From the NCBI RefSeq assembly GCF_003955735.1, contig NZ_CP034464.1:4340001-4404000 (forward strand): 64,000 nucleotides of DNA. Reading direction: 5' to 3'. Under the pieces are notes generated by a model. It was not told the DNA's origin, made no database searches, and saw nothing but the letters and a program-made list of their open reading frames with translations. The DNA is from Undibacterium parvum. Lineage in GTDB: Bacteria; Pseudomonadota; Gammaproteobacteria; Burkholderiales; Burkholderiaceae_D. Shown one piece after another: positions 48,914-63,010 of this stretch (position 1 is its first letter; the number at the start of each line of letters is the position of its first letter). The translations under genes and the position numbers were made by a program.

Positions 48914-49088
48914 TTTCTGAGGACTTCCGCCAAATTGTTACAGCTGGGTGTAAGGCCGAAGACGGTGCTTTTGTACGGCAAGGCCAGTACAAGGCCGCTT
49001 GGGTGATTTTTCGTAAGTCCTATTTCTATTAAATCGCCAAATTTGAAATGATTCATATCGCCTAGCGTAGCAAAATATGGCAGTATCA

Positions 49089-49136
49089 AATGAGTTTGCA
49101 AACGAGTTTGCAAATGGGCTTGTAAAGGGGTTGCTA
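49089..49136 (+). repeat. Four 12-bp tandem units upstream of the sensor kinase
   Basis: AATGAGTTTGCA, AACGAGTTTGCA, AATGGGCTTGTA and AAGGGGTTGCTA are consecutive, the first two differing at one base. If translation began at 49077 they would encode NEFA-NEFA-NGLV-KGLL, but a signal peptide beginning at 49206 makes a regulatory or neutral role more likely. Confidence 0.65.
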
Positions 49137-49205
49137 ACACCGCCAGTAGTTGTGGTTGGAATTGCATTAAATAATGAATACTCCTCTTTCGACGAAATAA
49201 AAAGC

Positions 49206-52200
49206 ATGATGGCATTTTCATTCTTGTTTTTCCGGCGCAGCGCAAAATGCCTCCTATGCATATTGCCGTTTTTGTTATTTTCTTCCGCATTAGCCGCCCG
49301 CAATCCTCGATTTGAACAACTCGGTGTCGCCAACGGCTTGCCACAAGAATCGATCAATACCTTCCTGCAGGACCAACAGGGCTTTATGTGGATAGGCACA
49401 CAAGCAGGTCTGGCGCGCTTTGATGGCTACCGTTTCGTGGTCTATAAAAACAATCCGCAAGATCCAGCTAGTTTGATCGATAACTACATTTTGTCGTCTT
49501 ACCAGGATGCGCAGGGTGGCTTATGGTTTGGCACCAAGGGCGGCTTAAATCATTTTGATACGCGAAGTAAAAAATTTACCCGCTACATTCCGCAGCAAGA
49601 GATTCCCGGCACACTGACTAATCGTTCCGTGGTGGCGATTGCCAGGGATGGCGAACGCGGTATCTGGCTGGCCAGCGAAGATGGTCTTAAACACTTCGCT
49701 TTCGCCACCAAAGAATTCACCATCTATCGACATGACGCCAGTAAATTAGATAGCCTAAGTGCGAATAAAATTAATGCCCTTTACAGTGATCCGGAGGGGC
49801 GACTCTGGATAGGAACGGCGAACGGTTTAGATTTGTTTCAGCCTCAGCAATCGAACTTTAAACATATTGATATTGAAATTAAGAATCGTCCGGCTAACAC
49901 CCAGAATAATATTTTGGCGCTCACTGTTGGGCCTGATCAAAAATTATGGATAGGGAGTAGTGCGGGTTTGGCGAGTATCCAATTGGGAAAAGATACGGCC
50001 AAACAAGAACCGATTTCTGAGCTTGCCGGTTTCGGTGCTATTGCGGTACAGGCGCTGATGCACGACAAACAAGCTAATCTCTGGATAGGAACTATCAATC
50101 ATGGCCTGATATTGCTAGACGCGAAAACCGGGCAGGCGAGTAATTACCAGGCACAACCGCTGGACAGAAATAGTTTGGCAAATAATGAAGTAAAGACCTT
50201 GTTGCAAGACCGCTCCGGCACTCTATGGGTGGGTACCTGGTTTGGTGCGATCAGTCGGCTCGATTTGCACAGTGGCGGATTTGAGCGCTTGATACAGTTA
50301 AATGGCGCGCCCAATAGCTTGAGCGAAAACAAGGTCAGAGCGATAGTCGATGATGAACAAGGTGCGTATTGGCTAGGGACGCTAGGTGGCGGCCTGAATC
50401 GGTTTGATCCACAAACCGGGAAAATTGAGGTCTGGCGCCACCGGGAAGGCGACAAACAGAGTCTAGTCGATGATAGGGTCTCTGTGCTTGCCTATGATCA
50501 GAACCGCCGTTTATTGGTCGGAACCCGCAATGGCCTCAGTTGCTTTGATCCCAAAACCAATGTTTTTAAAAGTATACTTTTGGGCGCCAGTCTTGATGAA
50601 AATTATATACAAAAAATTCTCACTGACGGTGATGGCAATACCTGGATAGGTAGCAGGGGTGGCTTGTTTAAACTGGAGGCTGGCAGTCATACGCTAAAAA
50701 GCTATCGGCATGATGTGAGTGACGCCACTAGTCTGGGTGAAAACTCTGTCTTGTCTCTGGCTGCGGATGCCCAGGGAGGTCTCTGGGTAGGGACAGAAAA
50801 CGGTTTGGACTATTTAGACAAAAATAGCAGTAAATTTAGGCACTATCAAAACGATGCCAAACAGAGCACTAGCTTGCTGCATAATCGTGTGAATAATTTA
50901 CTGCTGGACAGTAAAGGACGTCTCTGGATAGGAACTGCGGGCGGTCTAAATCAGCTGCTCAAAACTGCGAATGGAGAATTACAATTCCAATCCTATCTGC
51001 ATTTGCAGCATGGCGCGAATGAATCTATAGGCACTATCCTGGAAGACGAGCAGCAGCAAATTTGGTTTAGCTCTATTGTTGGTATTTCCAGACTCAATCC
51101 CTTGAGTGAGCGGATACAGTTGTATACCGCAAACGACGGCTTAACCGAAGGGGCGTTTCTTATAGGCTCCGGGCATAAGGCCAGGGATGGCACACTCATT
51201 TTCGGTGGTTTAAATGGCATTAGTTATTTTCAAGCCAAGGCAATTCGCGATAATCTTCAGCCCCCGCCCGTGGTCATCACTGATTTCCTGATTTTTAATC
51301 AATCGATCAATGCGCTCGCTACGCGCAAGCAGCAGGAGCTTGGCGCCCTCGATGGCATTGAGAACGCCAAGCGCATACACTTAAATGATAAAGAATCCGT
51401 GTTTTCTATCGAGTTTGCGGCACTGCATTTTGCCAACGCGCAGGCCAATCGTTATGCTTATCAATTACAAGGTTTTGATCAGGATTGGGTCGAGGTCGGT
51501 GCCAGTAAACGTTTTGCTACCTATACCAATCTCGATCCCGGCGAATACTTATTCAAGGTAAAGGCGAGTAATTCGGATGGCGTCTGGAACGAAACAGGCG
51601 CCAGTGTAAGCATCACAATTGCGCCGCCGTATTGGAAAACCTGGTGGTTTCGCGTGCTGGCCTTAAGCGCACTCATTGCCATGGCTTATCTGGCTTTTCA
51701 GTTGCGCATACGTGCGTTTAAAAAACAAAGGCAAGTACTCGAACAGGAAGTTGGTTTGAGAACCATGCAATTGCAAATGAAGAACGACGAAGTCTTGCAT
51801 CAAAAAGAAAATCTGGAGCTGGCGCATAGAAATATGTCCTTGCTCAGTGACATAGGGCGTGAGATCACTGCCAAATTGGATAGTGAAGCCATCATCATGT
51901 TGGTCTACCGGTATGTGCATGAGTTAATGGATGCCAGTGTTTTTGGAATTGGTTTCTATCGTCCGGATCGGCAGTTGATCGATTACCCGTTTGCGATAGA
52001 AAATGGCAAACGCTACAGCGCGTATAGTCGCGATATGCGTGAGCCGAATCAGTTTGCAGTGTGGTGTATCACGCACGAAAAAGAGATTTTCATTAATGAT
52101 TTGGAGCGCGAATATACAAATTTTTTTGATGATCTAGATCTCACGGTCGGCACCGTGCGTTTACCGATGCTGGCGGATGGCAGTATGCCCTGTACTGCCC

Positions 52201-53165
52201 AGTCTATGTTGTACGTGCCTATCTCGGTCGCCGGGAAAATACGCGGGGTCATCAGTGTGCATAGTCATCAAAAAAATGTCTATCAAGGCATGCATCTGGA
52301 TATGCTGCGTACCCTCGCTTCGTATGTCGGTGTGGCTTTCGATAATGCTGATGCGTATGCGCATCTGAAAGAAACCCAGGAGCAACTAGTCGAGCAAGGT
52401 AAGCTCGCTGCCTTGGGCTCGTTGGTGGCGGGGGTGGCGCACGAGCTCAATACGCCGATAGGCAATAGTTTGATGATCGCCAGTACCATGCAGGATAAGA
52501 CCGAGGTGATGGGTAATTTAATCGCCAGCGCGAGTGCGCGGCGCTCTGATCTGACGAATTTTATCGATGCGGCCAAAGAAGCGTCGGTACTCATCATGCG
52601 CAGCTTAACCAGTGCAGCCGATCTGATTAATAGTTTTAAACAAGTGGCGGTAGACCAAACCAGCGCCAAGCGCCGTCAATTTGACTTACAGCAGTGCACC
52701 CACGAGATCGCTGCCACCATGATGAATCAGGTGCGCACCGCTGGCCATACTCTGGATTTACAGGTGCCAGCGAATATACCCATGGATAGCTATCCGGGCT
52801 CGTATGGTCAAGTGATCATCAATTTTATCGGCAATGTCTTGATGCATGCTTTTGAGGGGCGACGTGATGGCCAGATCAAACTGGTGGCGCGGCGCATGGG
52901 TGAGGATAGGGTAGAGATTATTTTTAGTGACAATGGCAATGGCATCAAAGCGGAAGATATCGCGTATATCTTCAATCCCTTCTTTACTACCAAGTTCGGA
53001 CAGGGCGGCTCGGGACTGGGCCTCAATATCAGTTACAACATTGTGGTTTCTTTGCTGGAAGGGCAAATCCGCGTCGAGAGCGTAGTCGGACAAGGCACTT
53101 CCTTCATTTTGGAATTACCCTTGACGGTAGGTAAACTCAGCGCAGCAAACGACTGGGTGGTGTAA
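49206..53165 (+). CDS. Two-propeller hybrid-type sensor histidine kinase (no receiver domain)
   Basis: About 1319 residues from ATG 49206, chosen because a signal peptide follows directly (FLFFRRSAKCLLCILPFLL, ending SSALAA); ATG 49077 in frame is the alternative. The periplasmic part has 14 propeller repeats of the type LWIGT-x-GL-x-FD, enough for two seven-bladed propellers. A Y_Y_Y domain follows (YAYQLQGFDQDWVEVGASKR). One membrane span lies near residue 815 (VLALSALIAMAYLAFQL). Then come a coiled coil, a GAF domain, and a kinase core with His1079 (GVAHELNTPIGN), SDNGNGIKAEDI and GGSGLGLNISYNIV. No receiver or DNA-binding domain and no adjacent response regulator, so it is an orphan. Ligand unknown; propeller sensors often detect sugars or polymers. 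Confidence 0.88.
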   Translation: MMAFSFLFFRRSAKCLLCILPFLLFSSALAARNPRFEQLGVANGLPQESINTFLQDQQGFMWIGTQAGLARFDGYRFVVYKNNPQDPASLIDNYILSSYQDAQGGLWFGTKGGLNHFDTRSKKFTRYIPQQEIPGTLTNRSVVAIARDGERGIWLASEDGLKHFAFATKEFTIYRHDASKLDSLSANKINALYSDPEGRLWIGTANGLDLFQPQQSNFKHIDIEIKNRPANTQNNILALTVGPDQKLWIGSSAGLASIQLGKDTAKQEPISELAGFGAIAVQALMHDKQANLWIGTINHGLILLDAKTGQASNYQAQPLDRNSLANNEVKTLLQDRSGTLWVGTWFGAISRLDLHSGGFERLIQLNGAPNSLSENKVRAIVDDEQGAYWLGTLGGGLNRFDPQTGKIEVWRHREGDKQSLVDDRVSVLAYDQNRRLLVGTRNGLSCFDPKTNVFKSILLGASLDENYIQKILTDGDGNTWIGSRGGLFKLEAGSHTLKSYRHDVSDATSLGENSVLSLAADAQGGLWVGTENGLDYLDKNSSKFRHYQNDAKQSTSLLHNRVNNLLLDSKGRLWIGTAGGLNQLLKTANGELQFQSYLHLQHGANESIGTILEDEQQQIWFSSIVGISRLNPLSERIQLYTANDGLTEGAFLIGSGHKARDGTLIFGGLNGISYFQAKAIRDNLQPPPVVITDFLIFNQSINALATRKQQELGALDGIENAKRIHLNDKESVFSIEFAALHFANAQANRYAYQLQGFDQDWVEVGASKRFATYTNLDPGEYLFKVKASNSDGVWNETGASVSITIAPPYWKTWWFRVLALSALIAMAYLAFQLRIRAFKKQRQVLEQEVGLRTMQLQMKNDEVLHQKENLELAHRNMSLLSDIGREITAKLDSEAIIMLVYRYVHELMDASVFGIGFYRPDRQLIDYPFAIENGKRYSAYSRDMREPNQFAVWCITHEKEIFINDLEREYTNFFDDLDLTVGTVRLPMLADGSMPCTAQSMLYVPISVAGKIRGVISVHSHQKNVYQGMHLDMLRTLASYVGVAFDNADAYAHLKETQEQLVEQGKLAALGSLVAGVAHELNTPIGNSLMIASTMQDKTEVMGNLIASASARRSDLTNFIDAAKEASVLIMRSLTSAADLINSFKQVAVDQTSAKRRQFDLQQCTHEIAATMMNQVRTAGHTLDLQVPANIPMDSYPGSYGQVIINFIGNVLMHAFEGRRDGQIKLVARRMGEDRVEIIFSDNGNGIKAEDIAYIFNPFFTTKFGQGGSGLGLNISYNIVVSLLEGQIRVESVVGQGTSFILELPLTVGKLSAANDWVV

Positions 53166-59458: not shown

Positions 59459-62400
59459 ATGGATCATAAGACTAGATTTACCAAAACCGCGAAAGGCTTA
59501 GCCGAGTCACTGGGAAAAACCAAGGACTTGTCCAGGGACTACCGCCGGGTGATTAAAGAGGTGGATGGGCATGCGTCCTTCCGTGATTTGCAAGATGTTC
59601 TGGGTAATTTGTCGGACAATAAGCTGACGGAAATTTTACAAAAATTAGTCAGTGATGAGTATATCCGCGGTTTTAATTTGCCTGAGGCAGCCGCAGTCGA
59701 TGAGTCAGTAATTCCCGCCGAAGCCGAGATAGAAAATGCGCTGAGCATACTCACGATGGGGGCGTTTTTGCGCGAGGTAGAACACGCAGATAAAGTCCAA
59801 TCCGGGGAGCTCGATAGTCAAGCTGATGCCAATCAAGAGCAAGCCCGTTTGTCTGCCGAAGCACAAGCTAGGCAAGCCGCTGCGGACAAAATACGCCGGG
59901 ATACCGATGTCAGGGCTAAGAAATTAGCCGAAGAAAAGCTGCGTCAAAAAGTTGAAGCGCAGGCCAAGAAGGAGTTGGAGGAGCTTGCAAAAGTTGCCGC
60001 TGCAGCCAAGGCGCAGAAAGCGGCAGATGAAAAGCTAAGGCAGAAACAACAGGCACTGGAAAAAAAAGCCGCAGATGAGCTGGCTAAACAGCAGGCGGCG
60101 CTAGAGCTGGCTCAGCAAAAGGTGCAGGCACAAGCCAAGAAAGAGATCGAAGAGAACAGCAAGCGCGAAGTTGCTGCCAAGGCCAAGCAAGTGGCAGATG
60201 AATTGGCAGCGGAATTGGCAGATAAGTTATTACGCCAGCGCCAGCAAGAACTTGAACAAAAACAGGAACAAGCCAGAAAAGTCGCCGAAGAGATTTTAAA
60301 GCGTGAGATGGACGCCAAAGCGGCGGCCCAAGCTGTAGTTGAAGCCAAGGCTGCGGCCGAAGCCAAGGCAGTGTTAGTAGAGCAGGCGCGTCAGGCCGAG
60401 CAAGCTAGGAAATTAGCGGAAGAAAGCGCGCTGCGGGCTGCCGCTGAGGAAGCCAAAAGAATCGCAGAGCAAATCGCGCAAAAAGAGGCAGAACAAGCTG
60501 CGCTAAAAGCACAGCAAATATTAAAAGCGGCACAGGACGCGGCTAACTTAGCTGCGGAGACCAAGGCCAAAGAGCTAGCAGAAGAGCAGGCTCGCAAACG
60601 CGCGCAAGAACAGAAAGAAGCCGAAGACAAGGCCTGGCAAAAATTTGAAGCCAAGGCAAAGCGCGAAGCCGAGCAATTAGTATTGGAGCAAGCGCTGGCC
60701 TTAGCCTTGCAAGAGGCAGAAGAGAAGGCACGGCAAGAAGCCGCGCTGGCGCTGTTAGCACAGCAGCAGCTGGCAGAACAAGAAGCGCAACAGCGCGCGC
60801 AAGAGCTGGCAATGGTCGCGGCACGGCAGGCAGCGGAAGAACAGGCTAAGGCCGAAGCACATGCACAAGAAGAGGCTGCAGCACTCGCCTTAAGTAAGGC
60901 ATTGGAACAAGAAAGAAAAGTCGCGGCACAAGTTCAGCTAGAAAGACAGGCAAAAAAAAGAGCGGCAAGCCAGGAACAAGCACGTCGCGCAGCCGAACAG
61001 CAGGCTAAACGACAATTAGAAATCCAGAAGCAGCAGGCAGAAGAAAAGCAAAAAGCCCTGGAGCGTGCCAAAGAACTCGCGTTAGAGCAAGAAAAAATAC
61101 AGGCACAGGCACACGCGAAGGCCGAGGAGTTAGCAAAATTGGCAGCACAACAGGCGCAACAAGAATTGGCAGAGCAAGAAAAACAGCAAGCACAAGCTCA
61201 ATTAGAGACTGAATTGGCAGCTAAATTAGCAGCTCAGCTTGCAGCTGAACTAGCAGCGCAAGCGCAGGCACTAGCCGAACAGCAAGCCCTGGAGTTAGAG
61301 CGTCAGCATAGACATGCGGAACAGGCGAAACTGGCTGCGGAAGAAAGAATTAAGCAAGAGGCGGAAAGCTTGGCGTTTGAGTTATCACAGGCGCAGGAGC
61401 AAAGGGAATGGGAGTTGCAAGTGCAAACTGCGGCCGCTGAAAAACTCAGGCAGGAAGCCGAGCGGCAAGCGCAAAAAGAAGTCGACGAGCAAGCGCGCAA
61501 AGCGATACAGCTAGAGTTGGAACAACAAGCGGAACAGCAAGCACTGGCGCGCAAAGTGCGTGAAGAGGCCGAGCAAAGGGCAGCCATAGAAGTGCAGGAA
61601 AGACTGCAGTTAGCGCAGGCACAAGCGCTCGATAGGGCAGAAGAGGAAGCCGCTGCGAACGCCAGAAGGAAGCGCGAGAGAAAGCAAACTCGGGCAGCAG
61701 AAAAGCGCGAGACTGCCAATCGTAAGGAGCGAGAACTCAGTAATGCCAATGCGGATAAGAGTAGCTACCAAAACTCTGGCTCGTGGATACAATTATTTTT
61801 GGGGGCGACGGTCTTGTTGAGCATCGCCCTATTTGCCTGGGCGCAGCTCAGTGATTTCAGCGCGCGGCTGACCCAATTTGAAAAAGTCAGCAGTGCGCAA
61901 TTGCATCAGCCAGTCAAAATTGAGCAATTGCATTTTTCATTTTTACCGCAACCGCATTGGCAATTGCAAAACGTTCGCATAGGGGCGCGTTCGCAGATTA
62001 AAATTGAGCAAGTCAATGCCGACATAAACATCAGTGCCTTGCTGGCGCAGGAGATGCAAATTAAGGGTTTTGAGTTTATTTCGCCTGTGCTCAATGAAGA
62101 GGCGCTGGGCTGGCTATTTTTTGAGAAACTCCAAAGTGCGGGCAATAAAGTACGCTATTTTAGCGCCAGCAATTTGAATCTCGATTGGCCGCAACTGAAC
62201 CTGGGCAGCTTCGATGTGAGCGGCGAATTTGGAAATAATGGTGCCTGGCAAAGTATCAAACTGCTTTCCGCCAAGCAGTCTATGCAGATAGAAATGCAGC
62301 CCAAAGACGGCACTGTGCAAGTGAAAATGAGTGCTAAAAGTTTCGAACTGCCATTGGGCGCTGAGCTAAAATTAGCTGACTTTAGCGCGGAAGGCAGTTT

Positions 62401-63010
62401 GAGTCCAAAGTCCTTGAGTCTGACTAAATTTTATGGCGTGAACTACGATGGCAGTTTGACCGGGAGCGCCAACTTGAGCTGGGATACGCTCTGGAGTTTT
62501 AAGGGTGATATCCACGCCAAGCAGATCAATCTCGCACTCGCTTTGCCGGCCTTATTCGAGAGTGGCAAGGTAGACGGGCATGCAAAGTTCGGCATGCAGG
62601 CAACGCAAGCCAGTAAACTCTTCGCTGGCGCCAAAATGAATGGCAATCTGCAAGTGCATGGCGGTAGTTTGCTAGGGGTTAATTTACTTAATCTGATGCA
62701 GACTGGCGCCAGCGGTGGCAAATCTGCATTCAATGATCTGGTGGCTGGATTTAGCTACGACGGCGCAAAAACATATTTTAGAAGCGTAAAATTATCCGCC
62801 GGTCTGGTGTCGGCTTACGGTAGCGCAGATTTGGGCAAGAATGCGGAACTCTATGGTCGCTTCACGGTCTTGCTGGCCTCGCCGATACGCGAAGCGCGCT
62901 CCGATTTACTCTTGTCTGGGCCACTCACCAAGCCACGCTTTAGCGCTGCCGCCGAAGTCACAAGGTCTATGCCTACACCGCTAGAGGATGTGACGGTAAC
63001 GCTGGAATAA
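59459..63010 (+). CDS. Giant coiled-coil membrane protein with AsmA-like C-terminal domain
   Basis: A 1183-residue protein in four parts. Residues 1-75: a helical, winged-helix-like region (YRRVIKEVDGHASFRDLQDV). About 110-760: one uninterrupted segment almost wholly Ala, Gln, Glu, Lys, Arg and Leu, certain to be coiled coil. About 740-770: very basic (ARRKRERKQTRAAEKRE). About 776-797: a single membrane span (LFLGATVLLSIALFAWAQL). 800-1183: AsmA-like repeats (VKIEQLHFSFLPQPHWQLQN, VKLSAGLVSAYGSADLGKN). The basic flank puts the coil in the cytoplasm and the AsmA part in the periplasm, the reverse of TolA. AsmA relatives shape or move outer-membrane lipids. No family fits the whole protein. 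Confidence 0.8.
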   Translation: MDHKTRFTKTAKGLAESLGKTKDLSRDYRRVIKEVDGHASFRDLQDVLGNLSDNKLTEILQKLVSDEYIRGFNLPEAAAVDESVIPAEAEIENALSILTMGAFLREVEHADKVQSGELDSQADANQEQARLSAEAQARQAAADKIRRDTDVRAKKLAEEKLRQKVEAQAKKELEELAKVAAAAKAQKAADEKLRQKQQALEKKAADELAKQQAALELAQQKVQAQAKKEIEENSKREVAAKAKQVADELAAELADKLLRQRQQELEQKQEQARKVAEEILKREMDAKAAAQAVVEAKAAAEAKAVLVEQARQAEQARKLAEESALRAAAEEAKRIAEQIAQKEAEQAALKAQQILKAAQDAANLAAETKAKELAEEQARKRAQEQKEAEDKAWQKFEAKAKREAEQLVLEQALALALQEAEEKARQEAALALLAQQQLAEQEAQQRAQELAMVAARQAAEEQAKAEAHAQEEAAALALSKALEQERKVAAQVQLERQAKKRAASQEQARRAAEQQAKRQLEIQKQQAEEKQKALERAKELALEQEKIQAQAHAKAEELAKLAAQQAQQELAEQEKQQAQAQLETELAAKLAAQLAAELAAQAQALAEQQALELERQHRHAEQAKLAAEERIKQEAESLAFELSQAQEQREWELQVQTAAAEKLRQEAERQAQKEVDEQARKAIQLELEQQAEQQALARKVREEAEQRAAIEVQERLQLAQAQALDRAEEEAAANARRKRERKQTRAAEKRETANRKERELSNANADKSSYQNSGSWIQLFLGATVLLSIALFAWAQLSDFSARLTQFEKVSSAQLHQPVKIEQLHFSFLPQPHWQLQNVRIGARSQIKIEQVNADINISALLAQEMQIKGFEFISPVLNEEALGWLFFEKLQSAGNKVRYFSASNLNLDWPQLNLGSFDVSGEFGNNGAWQSIKLLSAKQSMQIEMQPKDGTVQVKMSAKSFELPLGAELKLADFSAEGSLSPKSLSLTKFYGVNYDGSLTGSANLSWDTLWSFKGDIHAKQINLALALPALFESGKVDGHAKFGMQATQASKLFAGAKMNGNLQVHGGSLLGVNLLNLMQTGASGGKSAFNDLVAGFSYDGAKTYFRSVKLSAGLVSAYGSADLGKNAELYGRFTVLLASPIREARSDLLLSGPLTKPRFSAAAEVTRSMPTPLEDVTVTLE

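Follow-up and report, generated by a model that had tools for sequence, protein, structure and literature searches.

AsmA-family proteins (PF05170; AsmA, TamB, YhdP, YdbH and relatives) have a single membrane span with a beta-rich domain directly after it. They are candidate carriers of phospholipids to the outer membrane. In the Pseudomonas aeruginosa members described in PMC10900882, the span is N-terminal. Here we analyse a gene of Undibacterium parvum that encodes a 1183-residue protein with the same arrangement at its C-terminus but with ~775 residues ahead of the span. The window, the whole stretch of DNA analysed, is 64,000 nucleotides long (contig NZ_CP034464.1, positions 4,340,001 to 4,404,000), and the gene lies on its plus strand, at 59459..63010, as do the parts of the gene described below. 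From its sequence, we tentatively read the protein as an AsmA-like lipid-groove protein held on a cytoplasmic leash of variable length with a protein-docking tip, a function that we infer with somewhat less than even confidence.

The computed order of parts is a small domain (residues 1–75), a linker, a long rod (125 to ~735), a basic patch (736–759), a membrane span (775–797) and a beta-rich domain (798–1170). Translation is taken to start at the ATG at 59459, since homologues begin at the same MDxxTxFTKTAKG; a TTG 9 bases 5' of it is the mechanical start of the open reading frame, and the stop codon ends at 63010. Sequence databases give the relatives of this protein no name, call them hypothetical or, once (P0011), a colicin-uptake membrane protein. 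An earlier reading of this DNA, hereafter the original prediction, knew of no characterised protein with this order, and the literature we searched agrees, as no cytoplasmic rod joined to an AsmA domain was found described in it.

The architecture is real and recurs. Among 300 genomes sampled from the order, the N-terminal domain was found in 115 (E <= 0.01) and the C-terminus in 143 (E <= 1e-10). At least 70 of these genomes, from 20 of the 51 families sampled, encode both within a single frame, a count made on the two end domains alone. Of 57 named loci drawn from N-domain words, 45 have the AsmA-like domain in frame; the other 12 run off the contig (8), stop early (2) or are other proteins (2). 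Co-occurrence on this scale argues that the architecture is not due to chance. The gap between the end domains in the 70 genomes ranges from 59 to 1223 residues, with a median of 635 and a value of at least 297 in 67, which makes a strut of fixed length unlikely. The arm of the longest relative would reach up to ~180 nm.

The rod of the window protein (residues 125–735, 59831..61663) has ~610 residues, mainly Ala, Glu, Gln, Lys, Leu and Arg. Across residues 125–760, 79% are A, E, Q, K or R, and there is no G or P. The rise of an alpha-helix is 0.15 nm per residue, which gives a rod ~92 nm long if fully helical. The original prediction had put the A/E/Q/K helix at ~650 residues and close to 100 nm. 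Charge pairing and hydrophobic periodicity were computed for 8 rods in a first pass and then for 44 (the window and 43 relatives). In the window rod, opposite charges are in excess at i,i+4 (z of 5.5 for E-K and 5.9 for K-E) and like charges are depleted (z of -4.8); the excess of opposite charges reaches z >= 5.1 in all 44 rods. The heptad (3.5-residue) periodicity expected of a coiled coil is absent from the window rod (z of -1.2, with 16% hydrophobic residues), whereas two coils of this genome's SMC, run through the same script, give z values of 5.6 and 4.3 with 24–25% hydrophobic residues. An i,i+4 excess of opposite charges without a heptad is the pattern of a single alpha-helix (SAH). 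The rod thus looks like an SAH, and the earlier label of coiled coil is not supported. It would probably rank among the longer predicted bacterial SAHs. SAH proteins such as INCENP are likewise charge-paired helices, described in PMC4571873 and PMC4183817 as springs or leashes between domains; they are rich in Glu, Arg and Lys, whereas the window rod is rich in Ala and Gln and has fewer charged residues (38%).

Other values fit this assignment less well. The heptad z exceeds 3, with values of 3.1, 4.2 and 4.5, in 3 of the 44 rods (those of L124, L127 and L141), and some rods show a hydrophobic period of 4 with z up to 7.3. When Ala is counted as hydrophobic, the window rod has z of 2.9 at a period of 3.67 and of 6.9 at 4.0. 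One of the SMC control coils also shows E-K pairing, with z of 3.1. The periodicities leave room for Ala-based packing or a local coiled coil. The rod might even dimerise along its length as a true coiled coil, which would make the protein a rigid strut running from the membrane into the cytoplasm, a model to which the three heptad-bearing rods, the Ala-inclusive periodicity, and the length and helical composition all lend something. We consider it unlikely, given the absence of a heptad and the low hydrophobic content of the window rod compared with SMC and the lack of a conserved length.

The side of the membrane on which the rod lies is indicated by the flanks of the span. Hydropathy gives a single hydrophobic peak at 773–799, and the span is placed at about residues 775–797 (61781..61849), where the structure model has a helix (its residues 3–25). 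A basic juxtamembrane patch (residues 736–759, 61664..61735) precedes it, and K+R is higher before the span than after it in 39 of 44 proteins and equal in 2. By the positive-inside rule, this basic flank would put the rod in the cytoplasm and the AsmA-like domain in the periplasm, as the original prediction had argued from the flank and the single span. The comparison with TolA bears on the same point. The TolA helix comes after its span and is periplasmic; the window rod precedes its span. Domain II of E. coli TolA resembles the rod in being a long Ala/Lys/Glu helix with no heptad and with K-E pairing (z of 6.7), but it has little E-K pairing (z of 1.9 against 5.5). A protein inserted the other way round, with a periplasmic rod as in TolA and a cytoplasmic AsmA-like part, could draw on this likeness and on the colicin-uptake name of P0011. 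It is very improbable in view of the rod-side position of the basic flank, the lack of a second hydrophobic segment ahead of the rod in the window protein, and the periplasmic location given for the large domain of AsmA-like proteins in the account of PMC10900882. Pfam and NCBIfam scans of the whole protein and of the C-terminus gave no match to TolA families, including the TolA C-terminal domain. PF06519, which models that domain, has no match in this genome, though it is a narrow model that matches only 1 of 14 control genomes.

The beta-rich domain after the span (residues 798–1170, 61850..62968; predicted to be periplasmic) resembles AsmA in its profile and in its model. Scanned alone, the C-terminus matches Pfam AsmA (PF05170) at E=1.6e-6, so the similarity proposed in the original prediction was borne out by profile search, albeit at 27.7 bits under a curated cut-off of 29.8; a Pfam scan of the whole protein did not detect it. 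Aligned C-termini of relatives match AsmA at E <= 0.01 in 10 of 12 cases, the best at 7.8e-10. The structure model of this part has a predicted local distance difference test (pLDDT) score of 90 and shows the span helix, a second helix at 29–43 and mostly strands thereafter, so that the span directly precedes an elongated beta-rich domain, as in the AsmA family. Structural comparison of the model with VIA-align gave rows to TamB, LPD-3, Atg2-N and Vps13-N amid generic beta matches, and we infer that the domain probably forms a lipid-binding groove. Compared by sequence with solved structures, it had no relative among the families listed (best E of 0.88). The original prediction noted that AsmA proteins normally have a short cytoplasmic N-terminus; here the span lies at 775–797 of 1183, far from the N-terminus, and the protein is therefore a variant and not a canonical AsmA member. 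This genome also encodes AsmA proteins in frames of 1228 and 1396 aa, both scoring above the cut-off, so the 1183-residue protein is an addition to these two.

At the opposite end, the N-terminal domain (residues 1–75, 59459..59683) carries the signature F-T-K-T-A-K-G in an alignment of 44 sequences. AlphaFold2 models it with a pLDDT of ~90 across residues 1–70, and the modelled fold is a winged helix, in agreement with the winged-helix-like module originally predicted. The VIA-align matches of this model are winged helices, the best rows being winged helices within protein complexes. A Foldseek search gave no row at E <= 0.001, which does not exclude families missing from its list, and by sequence the closest solved structures are helix-turn-helix-type regulators at E 0.011–0.016. 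Winged-helix DNA-binding regulators combine this fold with a basic recognition helix. Across the 44 sequences the position of that helix, the third, is instead slightly acidic, with a mean net charge of -0.9 and a range of -5 to +2, and this weakens the earlier suggestion that the module tethers the rod to DNA. The fold would suit a membrane-tethered one-component regulator of the kind known from ToxR and CadC, in which the AsmA-like part would sense the periplasm and the winged helix, by way of the long arm, act on DNA. The acidic recognition position, the best fold matches to protein complexes and the lack of an adjoining gene kept throughout as a target make such a regulator improbable.

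The linker between the N-domain and the rod holds a short motif, [LF]DF[TSP], in 52 of 66 proteins, a count that includes near-identical rows, against a mean of 0.15 in shuffles. It is found beyond residue 220 in 3 proteins and is usually preceded by acidic residues. In three AsmA and rod proteins of family f12 (L179, L180 and L181; frames of 1219–1553 aa) the N-domain appears by eye to have diverged beyond profile reach, and LDFTSPE is kept in spite of this. The motif looks like a docking motif. At its spot in the linker, the window protein and its close kin carry LTMGAFLRE (residues 98–106, 59750..59776), and P0006 has both. Mimicry of the FtsZ tail was considered for LTMGAFLRE and rejected: it shares just the four residues AFLR with the C-terminal peptide of this genome's FtsZ (TYDIPAFLRKQAD; L199), probably by chance.

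The leash with a docking tip is favoured over a ruler, a coiled-coil strut and a DNA regulator because the charge pattern of the rod is kept and its length is not, because conservation is somewhat higher at the ends than in the middle, and because the tip lacks a basic recognition helix and has the motif. The nearest competitor regards the rod as a charged helix under low constraint that expands easily and contributes little function itself, with the work done by the AsmA-like domain and the N-domain. This is a possibility we take seriously while doubting it. Conservation is somewhat lower in the rod than in the end domains, rod lengths differ widely, and in G261, G406 and G302 the end domains are separated by just 59, 99 and 113 residues. 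However, charge pairing in 44 of 44 rods and a median gap of 635 residues suggest that helicity and considerable length are selected. Recent microsatellite-like expansion of the DNA was also considered and rejected, since the gene holds only weak 12-base repeats (scores 41–50).

In addition to the rod periodicities described above, several results weigh against a leashed lipid-groove protein. The AsmA-like part is short (~370 residues) and scores under the Pfam cut-off, porin-like rows stand above the lipid-bridge rows in VIA-align, and Foldseek found no solved structure at E <= 0.001, a result that does not exclude missing families. The window protein and its close kin lack [LF]DF[TSP]. Among 11 listed genomes of the genus, one of them the window's own, 3 have a strong C-terminus match and a fourth a weak one, so the protein is patchy within the genus. 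No neighbouring gene is kept throughout the loci compared as an operon partner, and the MsbA-related neighbour described below is confined to one clade and absent at the window.

Within the family, the C-terminus matches 14 of 195 genomes at E <= 0.001, a weak match in G176 among them. The N-domain occurs in 25 of 274 genomes of the class (its own included), where apart from the window protein it is found only in frames of 90–402 aa, and in 7 of 299 genomes of the phylum, in frames of 172–439 aa. In these samples the stand-alone N-domain module is the more widespread, and the full-length protein is seen just in the order. Stand-alone N-domain proteins, mostly 150–220 aa, occur in Beta- and Gammaproteobacteria with the signature K-T-x-K-G; they share the N-domain of the window protein and differ in having a small helical part in place of the rod and AsmA-like domain. 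The order also has short AsmA-like paralogues, in frames of 422–538 aa, which share the AsmA-like domain by profile and differ in lacking the N-domain and rod in 14 of 14 examined. In a tree of 97 AsmA domains these 14 form one clade (Shimodaira–Hasegawa-like approximate likelihood ratio test support of 99), a topology compatible with N-domain and rod having been gained once; the tree was made by a quick method and is unrooted, and the N-domain is cut off or unseen in 25 rows. Two loci titled Lysobacter (L144) and Gammaproteobacteria (L133) come from metagenome assemblies and are placed among Betaproteobacteria in the tree. Two further metagenome assemblies that carry the protein (L132 and L137) are titled Bordetella parapertussis; these titles look doubtful, and both fall among Betaproteobacteria metagenome assemblies.

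Under the leash model, the protein would be bitopic in the inner membrane, with a short AsmA-like groove, probably lipid-binding, on the periplasmic side. A long SAH-like helix, probably monomeric and stabilised by salt bridges, would extend up to ~90 nm into the cytoplasm. The winged-helix module at its tip, together in most relatives with the short acidic-aromatic motif, would dock a cytoplasmic protein, and capture of the tip by a cytoplasmic landmark would concentrate the AsmA-like part at one envelope site. The arm would supply reach, and its exact length would matter little. The identity of the partner and the positioning role are guesses. FimV and HubP, polar landmarks, are bitopic, with an envelope-facing domain and a long cytoplasmic part. 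The window protein is like them in its predicted bitopic form with a long cytoplasmic part, and its domain order is opposite. Spatial targeting is a reasonable guess given that E. coli AsmA-superfamily proteins are enriched at the poles in the report of PMC12977461. The built-in arm would also offer a handle on AsmA placement, with the N-terminal module and motif usable as bait for a cytoplasmic partner.

Recurrences among the neighbours of relatives are lineage-bound and were taken as a hint only, and the idea of a general operon partner was dropped. An ABC exporter lies 29–140 bases 3' of the gene on the same strand at 10 of 44 loci, all in the L143–L164 clade (L144–L149, L153, L157, L161 and L162). 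The best model for the L144 exporter is MsbA_rel (TIGR02204), at 768.9 bits against a cut-off of 780.4; an exporter near the gene in L121 passes that cut-off, and related exporters stand at varying places in the stretches fetched for L021, L023, L027 (= L121) and L113. This adjacency hints at a tie to lipid export. More broadly, and doubtfully, these proteins could be an undescribed AsmA class in many families of one order. In such a class, a cytoplasmic single-helix arm with a protein-docking winged helix and acidic-aromatic motif would bring a lipid-transfer module to a selected spot of the envelope and link the lipid supply of the outer membrane with a landmark in the cytoplasm, such as the pole, divisome or nucleoid; in one clade, the gene and that of an MsbA-related exporter apparently form an operon.

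The L143–L164 clade also has a divergent FecR/DUF6600 gene beside the gene at 16 loci, ~2 kb upstream on the opposite strand (L144–L164). A PilZ-domain gene is nearby in seven entries, representing five distinct loci (L021, L022, L023 (= L125), L114 and L027 (= L121)), and is directly downstream and convergent in all but the last. At the window, the genes 5' of the 1183-residue frame encode an aminotransferase, an aldehyde dehydrogenase and a cupin, the 3' neighbour on the opposite strand encodes a periplasmic binding protein, and none of them has an evident link to it. The N-domain is also found in other settings. A second N-domain protein of this genome (G000:C1:4599507-4599698; L167:5502-6086), of ~194–199 aa, ends in a small helical part and is one of the stand-alone proteins of Beta- and Gammaproteobacteria described above. 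The domain is fused to a response-regulator receiver in L165:6001-6795, above the Pfam cut-off, and in L106:512-1528, just under it; L104:5254-6292 joins it to a tail that is TonB-C-like by eye only, with no Pfam match. Elsewhere in the window, 49077-53165 encodes a sensor of 1362 residues in which two-component regulator propeller, Y_Y_Y, GAF and HATPase domains are recognised.
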